In this document: positions 2,374 to 13,713 of the stretch, one piece after another
Numbering within the stretch: the first letter of the stretch is position 1
Layout: the number at the start of each line of letters is the position of its first letter
IMG/VR virus record: IMGVR_UViG_3300040811_000121
Span: 1 to 34,418 of that record
DNA: 34,418 nt
Origin: a virus
Strand: one strand, 5' to 3'
Made by a program: the position numbers and the translations under genes
The notes under the pieces: generated by a model
Told to the model about the DNA's origin: nothing
Database searches by the model: none
Seen by the model: the letters and a program-made list of their open reading frames with translations, nothing else

Positions 2374-3180
2374 CTACATGTACTCCCTAAGTCGCAGAAC
2401 CTCTGTAACATAAGTGTCATGCTCTGGATGCATCTTATCAAAATAAGGCCCATCTCGTCTAGTCATCTCTGCAATTTGCCGTGATGCCTCTTCTGGTGTC
2501 ATAATTAGCTCTGTCGGTTCACCAACCAAATTGTCTTCGCCAATCTGTTCAGCCAGCTTTGCAAACATCCGAACAACGTCAGGGTGATCGCCAAGCATCC
2601 GACCATCAGAAAGCTGAACCTCTTCAAACATCTCCATGCCTTCTTGCCCCAGCAATGTCCGCGCAGCATTCTGTGCAAGCGCCATGCGCTGCTCAAATGC
2701 CTGTCCAAACTCTTGGCGCAACTCTGTTTCAGCCTGAAACACAGCCTCTTCTGCGCGTGCCTGCTGGGCTGCTGTACTGCTGTCGCCAGCTTCTTTTAAA
2801 AACCCAACAAGGCGATCTGCTTGCCGAGGCTGCAAACCAGCCTCCCACATTGCTTGTCGCAACGCCGAAACGCTTTCATCATTCGCCCCATCGCCCAGAT
2901 CAAACTTGTAACCATCTGCGCTGTCTGGGCGACCCACATTTGCATACCATTCGTTGTACTGATCATCAGTCCAACTCTGCCCAGGCTTGGCAACCTTATC
3001 AGCACCAATCATGCGCTGGGCATTTACATAACTCTTTGCCAATGCTCCCGGGTCAGTGAACGTGCGCAAGCTTGGCTCATTGCGCAAGTCTTCTGGTAAA
3101 CTATCTAAAAAGCTAACTGGTGCCGCATCTGCCGCCACAGCTTCTTGAGACCCTACATCTGGGGTTGCCTCTTCGCTCAT
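2374..3180 (-). CDS. Capsid scaffolding protein
   Basis: This 268-aa acidic protein begins SEEATPDVGSQEAV and continues with SFLDSLPEDLRNEPSLRTF and DPGALAKSYVNAQRMIG. That LPEDLR-EPSL--F-----LAKSYV-AQ--IG pattern recurs in scaffolding proteins of marine and other Gram-negative podoviruses and siphoviruses. The centre (about residues 100-190) is a Gln/Ala/Glu-rich helical region likely to form coiled coils, as expected for an assembly scaffold removed from the mature head. The C-terminus (PYFDKMHPEHDTYVTEV) would be the capsid-interacting end by analogy. It overlaps the upstream 69-aa gene by 4 bp (ATGA) and lies directly before the capsid gene leader, the classic scaffold-capsid order. Confidence 0.85.
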   Translation of the reverse strand: MSEEATPDVGSQEAVAADAAPVSFLDSLPEDLRNEPSLRTFTDPGALAKSYVNAQRMIGADKVAKPGQSWTDDQYNEWYANVGRPDSADGYKFDLGDGANDESVSALRQAMWEAGLQPRQADRLVGFLKEAGDSSTAAQQARAEEAVFQAETELRQEFGQAFEQRMALAQNAARTLLGQEGMEMFEEVQLSDGRMLGDHPDVVRMFAKLAEQIGEDNLVGEPTELIMTPEEASRQIAEMTRRDGPYFDKMHPEHDTYVTEVLRLREYM

Positions 3181-3386: not shown

Positions 3387-4975
3387 TCTTGTGTGGCCTT
3401 AATCAAAGGCGCAATATTACCGCCAGCCTCGGCTGCCAACATCTGCTCTTGCATCTGCTGCTGCGCGGCTGCCTGCTCGGCCTGCTGACGGCGCACCTCT
3501 TCTACCTCTGCCGTGCCGCGTATCACACGCGCTGGCAGGCCAGCAGTCTCAACCAAATACTGCACCATCGCATCGCCATCCAAATAATCCGTAACAGGCG
3601 CAACTTGGCTAACCTGCAACAAGATTTCAAACCCGCGCAGCATCGCCTGCAAGTCTGTCAACTTCTGAGCCTTGGCAAGTGGTGAAACATACTCTATGTC
3701 AATGTCCTGACCTTGAAGCTCCTCGGGCGGGGCTGGGAGGAGGCCCGCCCGAAGGAGCAATGCAAAGGAACGAGAAATAAGCGGTTGGAGCAATTCTGCT
3801 TGTAGTCGACCGAGGACAGGCCCAAGCAGGCGCATTTTCTCTTCATTCCTCTGCAATACTTCTGTCGCAGTCATGTTGGCCCCTTGGCCCAACAACAACT
3901 GGTCAACATAAAACGCCTGCCGAATAGCATTGCGGCGTTGCTCTTCCATATTCAAGCCCAAAGGATTGTTTGCGCCGATGTTCAGCGGCTCCAAACGATC
4001 CCTTGTGCCAGAGCGGTAAAAGTTTAATGCGCCAGGCGTTGTACGCACTGGCATCATAAATCCATCATCAGGCACCATCAATGGCGGGTCAATCTGCTTT
4101 TGCGCTGCCTTGATCGTCGTTTCAGACATCTTGTTAAGCATCTTAACATCAGGCAAGGCAGTCATGGCAGGCGAACGCCCATAAGTGCTAACGCTATCCT
4201 TGACAAATCTCGGACACATGAACGGAAACTCATCAAAGCCACCCTCTGACAGCAGCTCTCGGTTGTCAGCTAAGTAATAAACAGACGCGACAGGCTTCTG
4301 CTTTGCCAGCTTGCCTTTCGCTTCTGCCCGGGGAAAGACCGCATGAATGACTTCATGCTCTTTATACGGATCGCCTTCTAAGTCTTTCGCCACAGTCTTT
4401 GGCAATGTTGCCTGCGGGAACTGCATTGAAATCGCCCGCGCAGACAATTTAAACTTTCGATACACTGTATCAACACGACCGTCAGGGTCTTCGCTAATGC
4501 AAATCTCTGCAATGTGACGGCATGCAAACCGTAAACCATCTGGCTCGGCAGAAACATAAAACGCGCCAGTGCCAAACACCACCAAGTCATAGTACAGCTC
4601 ATGTATCTCTTGCTGAAAGTTTGACCGATTGAAATGCTGGTACATCTGATCCATGCACAGCTCCAACCACTCATTGGCAGCATCATCGCGTTGCAAGCCC
4701 GGATCACGATACCGCATTGAAAACCACGGCGTGCTTGGTGATGTCAGCATGCCATGCAGACTAGAGGCCAACAGCTCAACAGCATGAATAGCCGTGCCAT
4801 CATAAATCAGCTCAGTGCGCTTGTCGCCTTGGGTTCTCTTTTTCGTAATGTCAGCTTTGCGCGGCAGCATAAAATCTGCCAGCTCCTGCCAATGCTTTTC
4901 CCAGTTAGACCGCTGCGATTGCAACGTCTTATATCTTTTGTCCAAACGCGCAACGAGCGGATTAACCTGTACCAT
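3383..4975 (-). CDS. Portal protein (head-tail connector)
   Basis: This 530-aa protein has the hallmark start of podovirus head-to-tail connectors: RLDKRYKTLQSQRSNWEKHW, then ELADFMLPRK and an IYDGTAIHAVELLASSLHGML segment. The family shows an R-----W------Y--P motif, then D-T---A---LA--L---L. Later it contains PFMCPRFV and YGRSPAMTALPDVKMLN, the helix where the T7-like family has YGRGP. The C-terminal quarter is Gln/Ala/Glu-rich and helical (about 485-520), suggesting the crown or barrel. Twelve copies should form the DNA channel at the capsid vertex. The start is set by a TAATG overlap with the preceding small gene, and the stop overlaps the 69-aa gene. About 530 aa is typical of the T7-like connector family. 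Confidence 0.93.
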   Translation of the reverse strand: MVQVNPLVARLDKRYKTLQSQRSNWEKHWQELADFMLPRKADITKKRTQGDKRTELIYDGTAIHAVELLASSLHGMLTSPSTPWFSMRYRDPGLQRDDAANEWLELCMDQMYQHFNRSNFQQEIHELYYDLVVFGTGAFYVSAEPDGLRFACRHIAEICISEDPDGRVDTVYRKFKLSARAISMQFPQATLPKTVAKDLEGDPYKEHEVIHAVFPRAEAKGKLAKQKPVASVYYLADNRELLSEGGFDEFPFMCPRFVKDSVSTYGRSPAMTALPDVKMLNKMSETTIKAAQKQIDPPLMVPDDGFMMPVRTTPGALNFYRSGTRDRLEPLNIGANNPLGLNMEEQRRNAIRQAFYVDQLLLGQGANMTATEVLQRNEEKMRLLGPVLGRLQAELLQPLISRSFALLLRAGLLPAPPEELQGQDIDIEYVSPLAKAQKLTDLQAMLRGFEILLQVSQVAPVTDYLDGDAMVQYLVETAGLPARVIRGTAEVEEVRRQQAEQAAAQQQMQEQMLAAEAGGNIAPLIKATQE

Positions 4976-5935: not shown

Positions 5936-7213
5936 CTACGCCGCAAATGGATCATAATCCATCACCGCCTTTGCTTGAGGCGCAGCCATGCGTCCTCGAT
6001 CTTCTCGAATGCCGACTGCCAAATACCTAAAAGCATCCGCAGCGTGCGATGACCAATCATGTACAGGCGATGCCCTAAAGCTCCTAGTGCGCTCGTTATA
6101 CGCCCGGTGATACTGCCGTAAACATTCCAAGCCATGCTTGCACTTCTCTCTATCAAACCAAATACGCGGCAAAAGCATCTGTGCCGCATGTATTCCATCT
6201 TCAACTGGCAACTTAGGAACCACACGGAAATTCAATCCCAAATCCCAAGCAACCTCTCTCCTACTCTTCCCAGACCCAAGCTCCCGAACCTCAATATCAT
6301 GCGGGGCATTGTGATCCCCATACAGATACCCCTTGCTCGTTAAAATCTTGCAGTAGTGAGGCAAACCCTCACCTCGGGCTTCATAAAAGTCTATAACATG
6401 TATAGCACGCCCAATCGTTTGCGTAAACCATACTGCCGTGCTGTCGCCCACGCCCAGATCCCACCATGTGTCAACCTTGGCGCTCGGATCATACGGAACA
6501 TTCGTAATCCGACCATCCATCTGCACAGCTTCCATCTCCTTGCCATACACAGCACCCGGAACATTCGCATTCCACGAACACTCAAATTCCTGCGCATACT
6601 GATCGGCAGTCATCATAGAACGCGCAGCCGCAAGCTCCTCGTCATCCAAAATGCCTGTCTCGCTCGCCTTATACACAGCAGCCAGCCAATCTGGGTTCCC
6701 CGCAGCCTCCTCATACTTATCAAAGAAAGCATTGTGACCCTTCGGCGTACCGACAAACACGCACCACCCCTTCCGATCCGACAACGCAGGTCTGATCACT
6801 TCAGGAAACACGTTCTCTGGCATGTCAGCGACCTCATCCATGCAGCAGCCATCAAGAAAAATTCCCCTTAAACTATCGGGATTTTCCGCACCGAGAAGCG
6901 ATATTCTCGCGCCGTTTGGCAGATCACACCGCAATTCAGTCTCGTGAAACTTCACATTCGGTATCTTGCCCGCAAACTGTTTTATATAATCCCACGCTAC
7001 GTTCTTCGCCTGACGATAGGTGGGCGCCATATAGGCAAACCGGGGGTTAGGCTTTTGGCACATCAAGGCATCCCGCAAGATATGATTGATCGCCCAGACC
7101 GTTTTGCCAAAGCGGCGGTGGCAGACAACAACACCCCAACGCTTTTGCGACATCTCGTTGTGCAGCTTTAACTGCAACTCCCTCGGCTCATACGGTATCT
7201 CAATATGCGTCAA
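5936..7213 (-). CDS. terL: Terminase large subunit
   Basis: This 425-aa protein is the ATPase-nuclease motor that packages DNA into the prohead. Walker A is CHRRFGKT (residues 31-38). Walker B with catalytic Glu is in FLDGCCMDEVADM (Asp126-Glu127). The coupling motif is VGTPKG (154-159). The RNase H-like nuclease acidic residues are Asp252 in WWDLGVGDSTA and Asp386/Asp393 in HDWSSHAADAFRY. The length is normal. The frame opens at a TTG (7213-7211) overlapping the TGA of the small gene upstream. No nearby in-frame ATG precedes it, and the sequence is conserved-looking from the start (IEIPYEPRELQLKLH), so a TTG start is likely. It acts with TerS and docks on the portal. Confidence 0.95.
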   Translation of the reverse strand: MTHIEIPYEPRELQLKLHNEMSQKRWGVVVCHRRFGKTVWAINHILRDALMCQKPNPRFAYMAPTYRQAKNVAWDYIKQFAGKIPNVKFHETELRCDLPNGARISLLGAENPDSLRGIFLDGCCMDEVADMPENVFPEVIRPALSDRKGWCVFVGTPKGHNAFFDKYEEAAGNPDWLAAVYKASETGILDDEELAAARSMMTADQYAQEFECSWNANVPGAVYGKEMEAVQMDGRITNVPYDPSAKVDTWWDLGVGDSTAVWFTQTIGRAIHVIDFYEARGEGLPHYCKILTSKGYLYGDHNAPHDIEVRELGSGKSRREVAWDLGLNFRVVPKLPVEDGIHAAQMLLPRIWFDREKCKHGLECLRQYHRAYNERTRSFRASPVHDWSSHAADAFRYLAVGIREDRGRMAAPQAKAVMDYDPFAA

Positions 7214-8321: not shown

Positions 8322-8915
8322 TCAGAATGGAATAGGATCATCAAATGTTTTTCCTTTGATGTCGATCATTTCTGCGCCGGGGAATGATTGCTTGGCAGCT
8401 TTCTCCAGCTCACCCATCCAATGCTCCCGAAAGTAACGATACGCCAACGCAACTTCTCGCAACGTTAACAGCTCCAACTCAGGCCGCTGCTCTTTGATCG
8501 CACGCCAGCCTCTGCCGTCACGCATGATCCCGAACAGCTCGCCGTCTACCTCTACCTCCCAGACATCCGTACACGCCTTCTCAGCGCCCACACGCTCGGC
8601 TTCTGCATCCATTGCCTGCAAACCCCGCACAACAACCTCACAGCGCTTCCTGCACTCTTCTACGTCATTGTCTGCCAGAGCCGCATTCATCTTGGCAACC
8701 GCACTGCCATACTTCTGCGCCATCTTGACATCCACCAGCTCGGGCAGCCGATCCGTCCCCCACTTCCGATCCATCTCGATCACCAGCCTGTCAACCGGGG
8801 CAACTGCGTAATCACACATGATGGCATCTTTGTTCTGATTGCCATGCAATATACGATCCGACTTCTTTTGTCTTTTAGTCTGCCGAGGCTTTGCCGTCTG
8901 CTGGTTCTGTCCCAT
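8322..8915 (-). CDS. Unknown 197-aa protein of the early region
   Basis: The N-terminus is a basic, probably disordered tail (Gln/Lys/Arg-rich, residues 1-25). A mostly helical acidic/basic region follows (ELVDVKMAQKYGSAVAKMN, then NDVEECRKRCEVVVRGLQAM). The next segment, WEVEVDGELFGIMRDGRGWR, looks like beta strands. The C-terminus ends KGKTFDDPIPF, an acidic-proline-phenylalanine tip that resembles protein-interaction tails such as those of SSB proteins (DDPIPF versus E. coli DDDIPF). The ribosome site AAGGAGATTGGAAC precedes the ATG. I do not recognise a family. A role in DNA metabolism or recruitment through the SSB-like tip is an inference only. Confidence 0.75.
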   Translation of the reverse strand: MGQNQQTAKPRQTKRQKKSDRILHGNQNKDAIMCDYAVAPVDRLVIEMDRKWGTDRLPELVDVKMAQKYGSAVAKMNAALADNDVEECRKRCEVVVRGLQAMDAEAERVGAEKACTDVWEVEVDGELFGIMRDGRGWRAIKEQRPELELLTLREVALAYRYFREHWMGELEKAAKQSFPGAEMIDIKGKTFDDPIPF

Positions 8916-9057
8916 GTTCCAATCTCCTTACGATCTTTCATGTTGTTGGGTCTTCTATTTCTTCCTTGGCTTTCTATGACCTCACTTCCTCTCCTTGCGA
9001 GCGAAGCGTTAGCAAGGTGAGGAGGTGAGGATAGGCATTCAAGACAGCCAAAGCAGT

Positions 9058-9097
9058 AAAAAGCACTCCGCTGCTTGCGGAGCTTTTTCTTTTTTTT
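9058..9097. terminator. Bidirectional-type intrinsic terminator
   Basis: A 6-bp stem CTCCGC/GCGGAG (9066-9071, 9077-9082) with loop TGCTT is flanked by five A residues on the left and a 14-base T-rich run on the right (9084-9097). It can work in either direction, best rightward. For the leftward operon it would end or attenuate transcription after the primase-helicase gene. Confidence 0.65.
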
Positions 9098-9200
9098 GGT
9101 TCTTTTTTTTCTTTTTGCTCGTTAGTGGATTGACAAATCCTCCTCACCTCTGTAATTTCCGTAGGAAATTCACGTTTCAAGGTGAGGAAAATCTGATTAG

Positions 9201-9223
9201 CCGCCCAATGAGGCGGTTTTTTT
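9201..9223 (+). terminator. Rightward terminator-like hairpin
   Basis: A short stem CCGCC/GGCGG (9201-9205, 9212-9216) with loop CAATGA is followed by seven T residues. It is nested inside an outer pair TTCAAGG/CCTTGAA (9176-9182, 9227-9233). No rightward gene ends here, so it may block antisense transcription or be part of the repeat locus structure. Confidence 0.5.
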
Positions 9224-9331
9224 GTGCCTTGAAGTGAGGAAGTGCTTTTCGTTTTCATTGCATAACCCATTGATTTCATTGCATCCTCACTTCCTCACCT
9301 CAAGTGAGGACAAGGTGAGGAAGTGAGGAAA

Positions 9332-11488
9332 TTATACCTCATCCCACCTGATTTGCTCGCCAACGATAATTGCAGCCACTTCACGCCCTTGCCGACTGTC
9401 ATGCACCTCGGCTGTTTTCAGCACGTTCGTCTTGATCCACTTCTTTACGATGGCTTTGATTTTTGCTTTGTCCTTTTCCTTTTCCATGTCGAGGTTAAGC
9501 TCTTCTGCCACGGCATGGCCTACATAGTTTGCGGCTTGGACGCTCGCTCTGTACGGCGTTTGGTTGGCCTCTGCTTGTTGTACAAGTTTTTGTACGTTTC
9601 TGGCATTGTCGGCTGTCACGCCGTCAAAGAGATCAGGCAGCTTAAACTCTGTGGCGACACCTATATGTTCGCCGTTTGCTATTTCAACGCTTTGCATACG
9701 TCTGTAGACTGCCTTGTCTGATGGCGGCGCAAGGTTTGCCTTACCGTCATCTACTCTGAAGATGCCGAGCGCTTCGTGTTCATCTACACCGAGCGCCATT
9801 GCGTCCTCTGGTGTTATTCTGTTGATCACTCTGGCTGCCCGGGCTGCCCCGATGAGCGAGCCTGCACCTCTGACGCTGTCAATCGTTGCGTCATCACCGT
9901 TGCCTTTTCTGATGTGGTGTACGAGCTGGACTGAGCTGTTTGTGTCTCTTGCGAGCTTTCTGAGCATTGCCACGACAGCTTGGATGCTGCCGTTGTTGTT
10001 CTCGTTGACGAGGTGCGCACTGACAAATGGATCTAGGATGACTGCGCCAATTTTGTTTTCTTTTATCTTGCGGGTCATGGCTGCCAGCATGTCGTCGTTT
10101 GTGATGAGGCCGTCCCGGCTTTCTGCTGCCAGCGTGATCTGCATGGTATCCTCACCGTCCATGAACAGTCGGCCTTTGATGTCTTCTGGCTTGATGTTGT
10201 AATGCTGCATAGCTGCGATTGTGCGCATCTGCATTTCGCTGATCGGGTCTTCAAGGTTGATGATCCAGACGTTTGTCTGCTCTTTCACTGGCACGCCGAG
10301 CAGGTCTTTGCCTGTTGCGATTGCCAGTGCTTCTACGATTATAGCTGATGTTTTACCTATGCCCCCTGCCGAGGCTGTGACACTGATGTACTTCTTGATG
10401 TAGTCGTAGCCGTACACCCACTCCCTGCGCGGCAGCGTGAGCGCGTTGAACATATTGTAGGGTGTAGGCCATGACTGCTCGTCTTTGTCTGCCAGAGCTG
10501 TGTTCTGCTGCTCCATGCGTTCCTGCACTGGATCTGGCGGCGGTGTCCAACCTTTGTTTCTGGCACCGTCTATTGCCTTCTGCACTTCATTGCGTGTGTC
10601 GTCTACTGTGTAGCCTGCCAGGGTGAAGCCATCTGTTATGGCGTGGATCTCTTCGTCTGACAGCCCTTTGGTGACGTATGAGCCGACGAGGCGCACCATG
10701 TTTAGGTGCCAATCGTCACCTGCTAGTACATTCTGCACTGCCAATTGCCGATCCATTGCTTGCTGCCCGAGGTCTATGCTGATCGTGCTAGCTGCCTGTG
10801 CTTCTATCTTTGGGAATGCTCTCGTTAGGCGTTCCATTGGCTGCGGGTCACGATCCGTACTAAATTCTGTACGCATTGTGACGAGTTCAGGGACGTAGCC
10901 TTTGTCTTGCTTCTTTTTGTTGGGCCAAGAGACTGTGCCTGCCACGCGCATGATGCGGCTTGGGTTGATGACTGCCGGGTCTGTTTGCAGGCTGGCTGCT
11001 ATGGCTTTCTGGACATCGCGCCATGCGTCCATGTTTTGGCATGGCTCTTCCAGCTCCCAGTATGCGTGGCCTCTGGCGAAGGGTGTTGTGCCTGTCTTGA
11101 CTGACATTGTGAATTTGGGGCCAGCAAAAGACATGATGTTTTCCATTGCGCCTTTTGTGTCTGCGTCTGCGAAGCAGTAAAAGGCTGCCATGATGTCTGT
11201 GTCTTTGGCGGCTTTGCCTGCCGGGATCGGGCTGATCGGATCGACAGGGTTGATGCACATGTAGATGTTGGCCTTGGCTTTGTTCATTGCCTCGGCGTGT
11301 TCGACTGCTTGATCAATGTCTGCAAGATTAAATCTTGCTGCATTGGCTGATCCACCTTGCGATATGGATCGTATCTCTATTAACGGCTGTCCGACTTGGT
11401 TCCAATTCTTTGTAATCTGTGATATGAATTGTTTTATGATTGCGGATTGGGGAGCCATTTCCATTTTGTGTTCCATTTCCAATTTCAT
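9332..11488 (-). CDS. Primase-helicase (RepB-type primase plus RepA/RecA-like helicase)
   Basis: A 718-aa two-part replication protein. The N-terminal part has an archaeo-eukaryotic/RepB-like primase pattern: FADAD (residues 107-110 region), TGTTPFARGHAYW (132-144), then VINPSRIMRVAGTVSWPN (173-190). The C-terminal part is a RecA-fold ATPase of the RepA/AAA_25 type. Walker A is AGGIGKTS (374-381), Walker B is AVILDPF with Asp486, and VHHIRKG (523-529) and RGAGSLIGAARA (540-551) are the following conserved segments. It probably unwinds and primes phage DNA for a host polymerase, since no phage polymerase gene is present. It follows the SSB gene and a hairpin, and is followed by the GTGAGG repeat locus. 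The exact start is uncertain because several Met codons occur among the first 11 residues. Confidence 0.88.
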   Translation of the reverse strand: MKLEMEHKMEMAPQSAIIKQFISQITKNWNQVGQPLIEIRSISQGGSANAARFNLADIDQAVEHAEAMNKAKANIYMCINPVDPISPIPAGKAAKDTDIMAAFYCFADADTKGAMENIMSFAGPKFTMSVKTGTTPFARGHAYWELEEPCQNMDAWRDVQKAIAASLQTDPAVINPSRIMRVAGTVSWPNKKKQDKGYVPELVTMRTEFSTDRDPQPMERLTRAFPKIEAQAASTISIDLGQQAMDRQLAVQNVLAGDDWHLNMVRLVGSYVTKGLSDEEIHAITDGFTLAGYTVDDTRNEVQKAIDGARNKGWTPPPDPVQERMEQQNTALADKDEQSWPTPYNMFNALTLPRREWVYGYDYIKKYISVTASAGGIGKTSAIIVEALAIATGKDLLGVPVKEQTNVWIINLEDPISEMQMRTIAAMQHYNIKPEDIKGRLFMDGEDTMQITLAAESRDGLITNDDMLAAMTRKIKENKIGAVILDPFVSAHLVNENNNGSIQAVVAMLRKLARDTNSSVQLVHHIRKGNGDDATIDSVRGAGSLIGAARAARVINRITPEDAMALGVDEHEALGIFRVDDGKANLAPPSDKAVYRRMQSVEIANGEHIGVATEFKLPDLFDGVTADNARNVQKLVQQAEANQTPYRASVQAANYVGHAVAEELNLDMEKEKDKAKIKAIVKKWIKTNVLKTAEVHDSRQGREVAAIIVGEQIRWDEV

Positions 11489-13625: not shown

Positions 13626-13713
13626 TGCTAGGATGTTTTAAGATATAATGCTAGCAATATTTTTATGCAATAGTTAATTTTTTGCTAGCAATCTGCTGAA
13701 AAGTTTGCTAGCA
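13626..13713. promoter_or_regulatory. Operator cluster: TGCTAGCA palindromes
   Basis: Perfect 8-bp palindromes TGCTAGCA lie at 13649-13656, 13683-13690 and 13706-13713, with a degenerate fourth, TGCTAGGA, at 13626-13633. Start-to-start spacings are 23, 34 and 23 bp, a mirror-symmetric arrangement. They fill the divergent gap between the leftward early operon and the rightward unit, so they are best explained as binding sites of a dimeric regulator controlling both. Confidence 0.75.
13642..13670 (-). promoter_or_regulatory. Leftward early promoter (sigma-70 type)
   Basis: On the leftward strand TTGCAT (13670-13665) and TATATC (13647-13642) are separated by 17 bp, an ideal sigma-70 spacing. 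One TGCTAGCA palindrome occupies the spacer, so a bound regulator would block polymerase. The promoter lies about 30 bp upstream of the first gene. The overlapping TATAAT at 13644-13649 on the opposite strand has no good -35 partner. Confidence 0.6.

Follow-up and report, generated by a model that had tools for sequence, protein, structure and literature searches.

How a phage that seemingly has no DNA polymerase of its own starts copying its genome is the question raised by a compact group of repeats in the virus record IMGVR_UViG_3300040811_000121, the whole of which (34,418 nucleotides) was analyzed here and is called the window below. Comparison of the two ends of the window uncovered a 99-bp end repeat, which closes it into a 34319-bp circle, the size originally given, and the record is of the circular type. 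The window belongs to a podophage; its portal protein is closest to those of pelagiphages, and a 197-aa protein encoded beside the repeats is closest to proteins of Roseobacter phages. A comparison of 30 of the larger ORFs with PHROGs revealed no separate DNA polymerase, in line with what had been read from the sequence beforehand.

The repeats lie between two genes on the minus strand, one coding for a primase-helicase of 718 aa (9332-11488), the proposed initiator, and the other for the 197-aa protein (8322-8915), for which PHROGs, Pfam and NCBIfam gave no family match. No gene with family support is present in the gap between them, as anticipated by the original prediction, which saw no solid gene in the repeat locus. 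Between 8980 and 9328 there are 11 copies of GTGAGG/CCTCAC, found at 9017, 9025, 9182, 9234, 9304, 9315 and 9323 in the plus orientation and at 8980, 9142, 9285 and 9293 in the minus orientation; our recount thus agrees with the earlier estimate of about eleven in 350 bp. Chance had been expected to supply fewer than one such hexamer, and in the rest of the window 350-bp stretches indeed contain 0.15 copies on average and 2 at most. Array words make up a perfect 17-bp inverted repeat with a 12-nt loop (9284-9300/9313-9329), immediately past the primase-helicase stop, and the far end of the array forms a 19-bp near-perfect inverted repeat (8980-8998/9012-9030; 17/19 pairs). A third inverted-repeat pair lies at 9134-9149/9180-9195, and two terminator-like hairpins lie inside the array, one scored on both strands (9065-9083) and one on the plus strand (9199-9218); the original prediction likewise listed three inverted repeats and two terminator-like hairpins. 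The palindrome AATTTCCGTAGGAAATT (9154-9170) is retained in a relative (L082) whose array has the same long form as that of the window, with hairpins and an AATTTCC palindrome, yet is built from the word CTGTGG.

Scans of viral contigs yielded approximately 200 loci, 176 of which were examined for an array. In about 170 of these 176 loci, all from related marine phages, a similar array follows the primase-helicase gene; in one distant relative (L120) an array is absent at this position. The proposal of a plasmid-like origin was to be given up if relatives lacked the repeats here; as they carry them, it therefore survives. The words of near relatives are GTGAGG (type A), GTGTGG (B) and CTGTGG (C), and those of farther relatives include TTTGTAG, TTTATAC, TTTAGGACA, TTTCACAT, TTTCATACA, TTTTACACT and TTTCTACA, as well as TGCGACG, CGTACCA, TATACCA, CGTAACA, GGAGGA, ATAGGAAA, CCGGACAT and CGGGACAT. 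Among relatives the layout is constant and the word is swapped throughout the array. Thus, the short-form A, B and C arrays keep a constant register of copies with the word altered at every site. Likewise, arrays like those of the CRP phages share, across many words, a layout of two copies in one direction, a spacer of about 47 bp, three to four copies in the opposite direction, two copies back, a small hairpin and two copies forward (<< 47 bp >>>> << hairpin >>), in steps of 9-12 bp. Each of 15 genomes contains a single dense array, and the second-densest 300 bp for the same word elsewhere in the genome holds 1-4 copies. In four loci the word finder chose the GC-rich run CCCCCC, which we set aside as a feature separate from the array word. 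Among cultured phages, the Rhodoferax phage P26218 has an array of 10 copies with a GTAGCA core past its RepA gene. The repeat words that follow RepA-type helicase genes in two distant cultured phages are TTGTAGCAG in this phage (L217; repeats at 2663-3171) and GACTGGCGC in the Microcystis phage Mae-Yong1326-1 (L215; repeats at 4156-4694). We found no published account of this array in the open-licence literature.

The helicase core of the primase-helicase (residues 343-530; 9899-10462, minus strand) is a RecA-type domain matching PF13481 AAA_25 in Pfam with an E-value of 1.7e-33, and the assignment of the primase part is supported by a PHROG match (phrog_906, primase type) and motifs rather than by Pfam. 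The C-terminus, closest to the array, is predicted to form a winged-helix domain (residues ~620-718; 9335-9631, minus strand). Residues 575-718 are predicted to adopt a helix-helix-helix-strand-strand arrangement, with an only moderate pLDDT of 77-87 in the core. Alignment of the domain model with VIA-align recovered the winged helices of RecQ1 (Z 8.2) and of the FtsK gamma domain (6.0), which supports the fold and falls short of proof since, by the tool's own note, a Z near 8 can reflect a common arrangement. Foldseek by itself gave weak winged-helix matches only, and a sequence profile search of the domain against the PDB returned nothing useful and no related solved structure. The full-length AlphaFold model of the enzyme, with a mean pLDDT of 49, was unusable and was discarded. 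A search for copies in hosts and prophages gave one distant match, with 26% identity, in a deltaproteobacterial MAG.

The change of word among relatives raises the question of which neighboring protein, if any, changes along with it. We mapped the word type of 64 loci, as a three-state label assigned by the commonest word, on FastTree trees of 99-residue windows and counted parsimony changes. Trees of residues 1-540 of the primase-helicase mostly require 11-15 word changes and those of windows at residues 481-619, just before the domain, 8-10, as against 3-4 for trees of residues 561-718, which cover the winged-helix part. Trees of the 197-aa protein, which is kept beyond the array in many relatives, require 10-11 changes; as this protein adjoins the opposite flank of the array, physical closeness is not the explanation, and the protein, being uncoupled from the word, served as the linkage control. 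No other part of a flanking protein that was tested varies in step with the word. Although residues 1-13 of the 197-aa protein showed high mutual information as well, we disregarded this signal, since in relatives the codons concerned read through the repeat DNA itself. The best single predictor of the array word is residue 700, at the tip of the wing, which is Q in 13/13 A loci, K or A in B loci and S, A or H in C loci. The arrays of three loci (L060, L062 and L063) mix words, so the correspondence is not strict for the first base. The pairing of enzyme and array also persists across an intervening stretch of another gene, about 0.5-0.75 kb long. Such an additional gene separates the enzyme gene from the array in L005, L009, L010, L011, L017, L021 and L030; judged from translation alone it is HNH-like in L005 and L009 and PAPS-reductase-like in L010, L011, L017 and L030.

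A similar picture emerges from close pairs of phages. In CRP-like pairs with 80-90% helicase identity, the mean identity of the winged helix is 67% where the word is the same and 50% where the words differ. CRP-823 and CRP-821, with the words TTTGTAG and TTTATAC, respectively, are 95-99% identical over residues 1-600 and then drop to 79 and 70%. Conversely, CRP-823 shares 75-89% identity with CRP-811 over residues 1-400 and 98-100% over the remainder, and the arrays of these two phages are nearly identical. In both pairs the start of the 197-aa protein is 86-98% identical. These reciprocal swaps show that domain and array move as one cassette. The phages concerned, CRP-823, 821, 811 and 831 (L122-L125), are cultured Roseobacter phages among which winged helix and array were exchanged reciprocally, and CRP-821 and CRP-823 have a common host strain, FZCC0197. 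The strong co-variation suggests that the C-terminal domain may set origin specificity; as read from sequences, it points to a partnership of domain and word and leaves aside which process that partnership would serve.

One process that could be considered is that of a structured regulatory RNA encoded by the locus, the alternative named in the original prediction. The strand does fold far better than its shuffles (z -9.4), and stem arms in relatives alter on both sides together. However, the DNA strand folds equally well (z -8.2), as would any DNA inverted repeat, and because such repeats give the same signal we did not accept a case built on folding. Furthermore, copy orientation is unequal (8 versus 3 in L004), so many copies cannot pair with another and yet change their word too, which disfavors a structured RNA and is left unexplained by it. 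Neither Rfam nor tRNA searches gave a match, and structure alone does not account for the tie to the winged helix of the protein. We therefore give the RNA reading a very small chance.

The gene neighborhood brings in another candidate process, namely packaging, with the array acting as a pac site bound by the nearby-encoded small terminase. Past the 197-aa gene lie the genes for the small and large terminase subunits (TerS and TerL), within about 3.5 kb of the array, and pac sites are often near terS. In the 38 loci with TerS, however, its trees require 5 word changes, compared to 3 for the winged helix and 6 each for the 197-aa protein and the helicase, which does not set TerS clearly apart from a linked neighbor. 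Arrays of the same type also occur in genomes with no detectable homolog of the window TerL (G003, G008, G013, CRP-811, 821 and 823), some of which may be fragmentary records where this search may miss TerL. As the arrays persist in such genomes, we consider a packaging site very improbable.

A replication origin could make use of a host factor at the array. The site AATCAATGGGTTA (9263-9275, minus strand), inside the array, is the sole exact match in the window to the pattern WATCAANNNNTTR, the IHF consensus. Exact matches to this pattern occur in 21 of the 176 loci, compared to 1.6% of shuffles and 0/488 coding stretches; in relatives they fall mostly within the spacer of about 47 bp, with the NNNN part variable. 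In 4 of these 21 loci the word finder had picked a G+C run rather than the array, and the short A, B and C arrays contain no exact match. A second intergenic stretch about 1.2 kb past the primase-helicase gene in L172, L179, L180 and L198 combines a long C-rich run with a TATCAATGGGTTA or TATCAATAGGTTA element, likewise of the IHF consensus.

Computation directly shows a dense array whose position and layout are conserved, a word that changes together with the winged helix, and an IHF-consensus site. On these grounds we regard the array with good confidence as an iteron-type replication origin recognized by the phage's own primase-helicase. The earlier suggestion that the neighboring primase-helicase serves a plasmid-like origin thus gains support from the word tracking the winged helix and from the IHF-consensus site within the array. 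Binding, use of IHF, melting and initiation at the array would proceed as follows: the C-terminal winged helix would bind the repeated word, host IHF would probably bend the spacer in long-form arrays, several enzyme copies might assemble on the repeats, which are spaced at about a helical turn, and the helicase and primase portions of the enzyme would then open the DNA and prime it for host polymerase. We also computed cumulative GC skew, which had been suggested as a check. In the window its slope alters near 9.3 kb without the sign switch expected of a bidirectional origin, and in 15 genomes the curve runs in one direction round the circle, like most genes, and allows no origin call; as nearly all genes point one way, this test is uninformative.

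Several known systems bear comparison with the proposed origin. As in iteron-type origins, many copies of a short word adjoin the gene of the putative initiator, and the repeat spacing of about a helical turn and the IHF-consensus site in long forms are like those of iteron plasmid origins that use Rep and IHF. Plasmid iterons are usually direct repeats, often accompanied by DnaA boxes, which are common in such origins and not universal; here, in contrast, the copies are in both orientations and the array contains no DnaA box, TTWTNCACA occurring only at 6669 and 32688 in the window. The helicase of the alpha protein of satellite phage P4 is of the SF3 type, unlike the AAA_25 core here. P4 alpha combines primase, helicase and a winged helix binding origin repeats in a single protein (PMC4234260), and here a winged helix is predicted at the C-terminus, with no sequence match to a solved structure. 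ORF904 of the plasmid pRN1 is likewise a primase-helicase-winged-helix protein, with an origin directly past its gene that varies in sequence and keeps its structure (PMC4234260); that origin is one large stem-loop served by an SF3 helicase, whereas the present one would consist of many copies of a short word. In SaPI and SCCmec elements, the C-terminal domains of the initiator helicases act on iterons located immediately downstream of the genes for these helicases (PMC7581432). Short repeats directly downstream of an initiator helicase gene, as in SaPI Rep/ori and in SCCmec Cch2 with its AAGTG direct repeats, are also seen in the window and in about 170 loci. However, SaPI and SCCmec are satellites or cassettes with helicase cores other than RecA-type, as opposed to the AAA_25 core with a putative primase of a podophage, and the words here are far more diverse than their repeats. 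Because of its AAA_25 core, the window protein stands outside the families of SaPI/SCCmec, P4 alpha and pRN1 ORF904, and by analogy the best reading is a mode like that of SaPI Rep/ori or P4 alpha/ori placed on a RecA-type helicase.

The exchange of domain and word as a module has a parallel in the PLE satellites of Vibrio cholerae, in which the DNA-binding part of RepA and the origin repeats are exchanged together and selection by an origin-directed nuclease has been suggested (PMC8263062). PLE RepA is a RepA_N protein without a predicted helicase or primase (PMC7145576). Nuclease pressure of this type may offer a reason for the diversity of words here; unlike in PLE, no stand-alone winged-helix relative of the kind expected of an origin-directed nuclease was present among the collected loci. 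It is conceivable, though we hold this only tentatively, that the pair of winged helix and word serves as a fast-changing password, exchanged as a cassette between phages of the same host. If so, exchange would allow escape from origin interference by co-infecting relatives, satellites and origin-directed nucleases, and word types would behave as plasmid incompatibility groups in virulent phages. For CRP-821 and CRP-823, which infect the same host, this cassette is the biggest difference within the replication gene, so that both specificity and interference are directly testable with them. More generally, these results point to where DNA copying may start in a widespread marine phage group whose members seemingly have no DNA polymerase of their own, and the many matched pairs of winged helix and word provide a natural data set on how such a domain chooses its DNA.

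Since iterons can double as operators, the winged helix of the primase-helicase might alternatively use the array to regulate transcription of the downstream late genes. The array does lie where the replication module meets the structural one, and terminators occur within it. Nevertheless, a search of 8700-9500 revealed no sigma-70-like promoter, and the downstream gene varies between clades whereas the array stays with the primase-helicase. In addition, a separate GCTAGC group at 13650-13712, in a divergent region, looks more operator-like, and we accord an operator role for the array a small chance. The GCTAGC group comprises three palindromes, the divergent region that contains them being at about 13.4-13.7 kb of the window, and in G004, G005, G006 and G009 seven copies of CTAGCA are found in a single stretch, apart from the candidate origin array.
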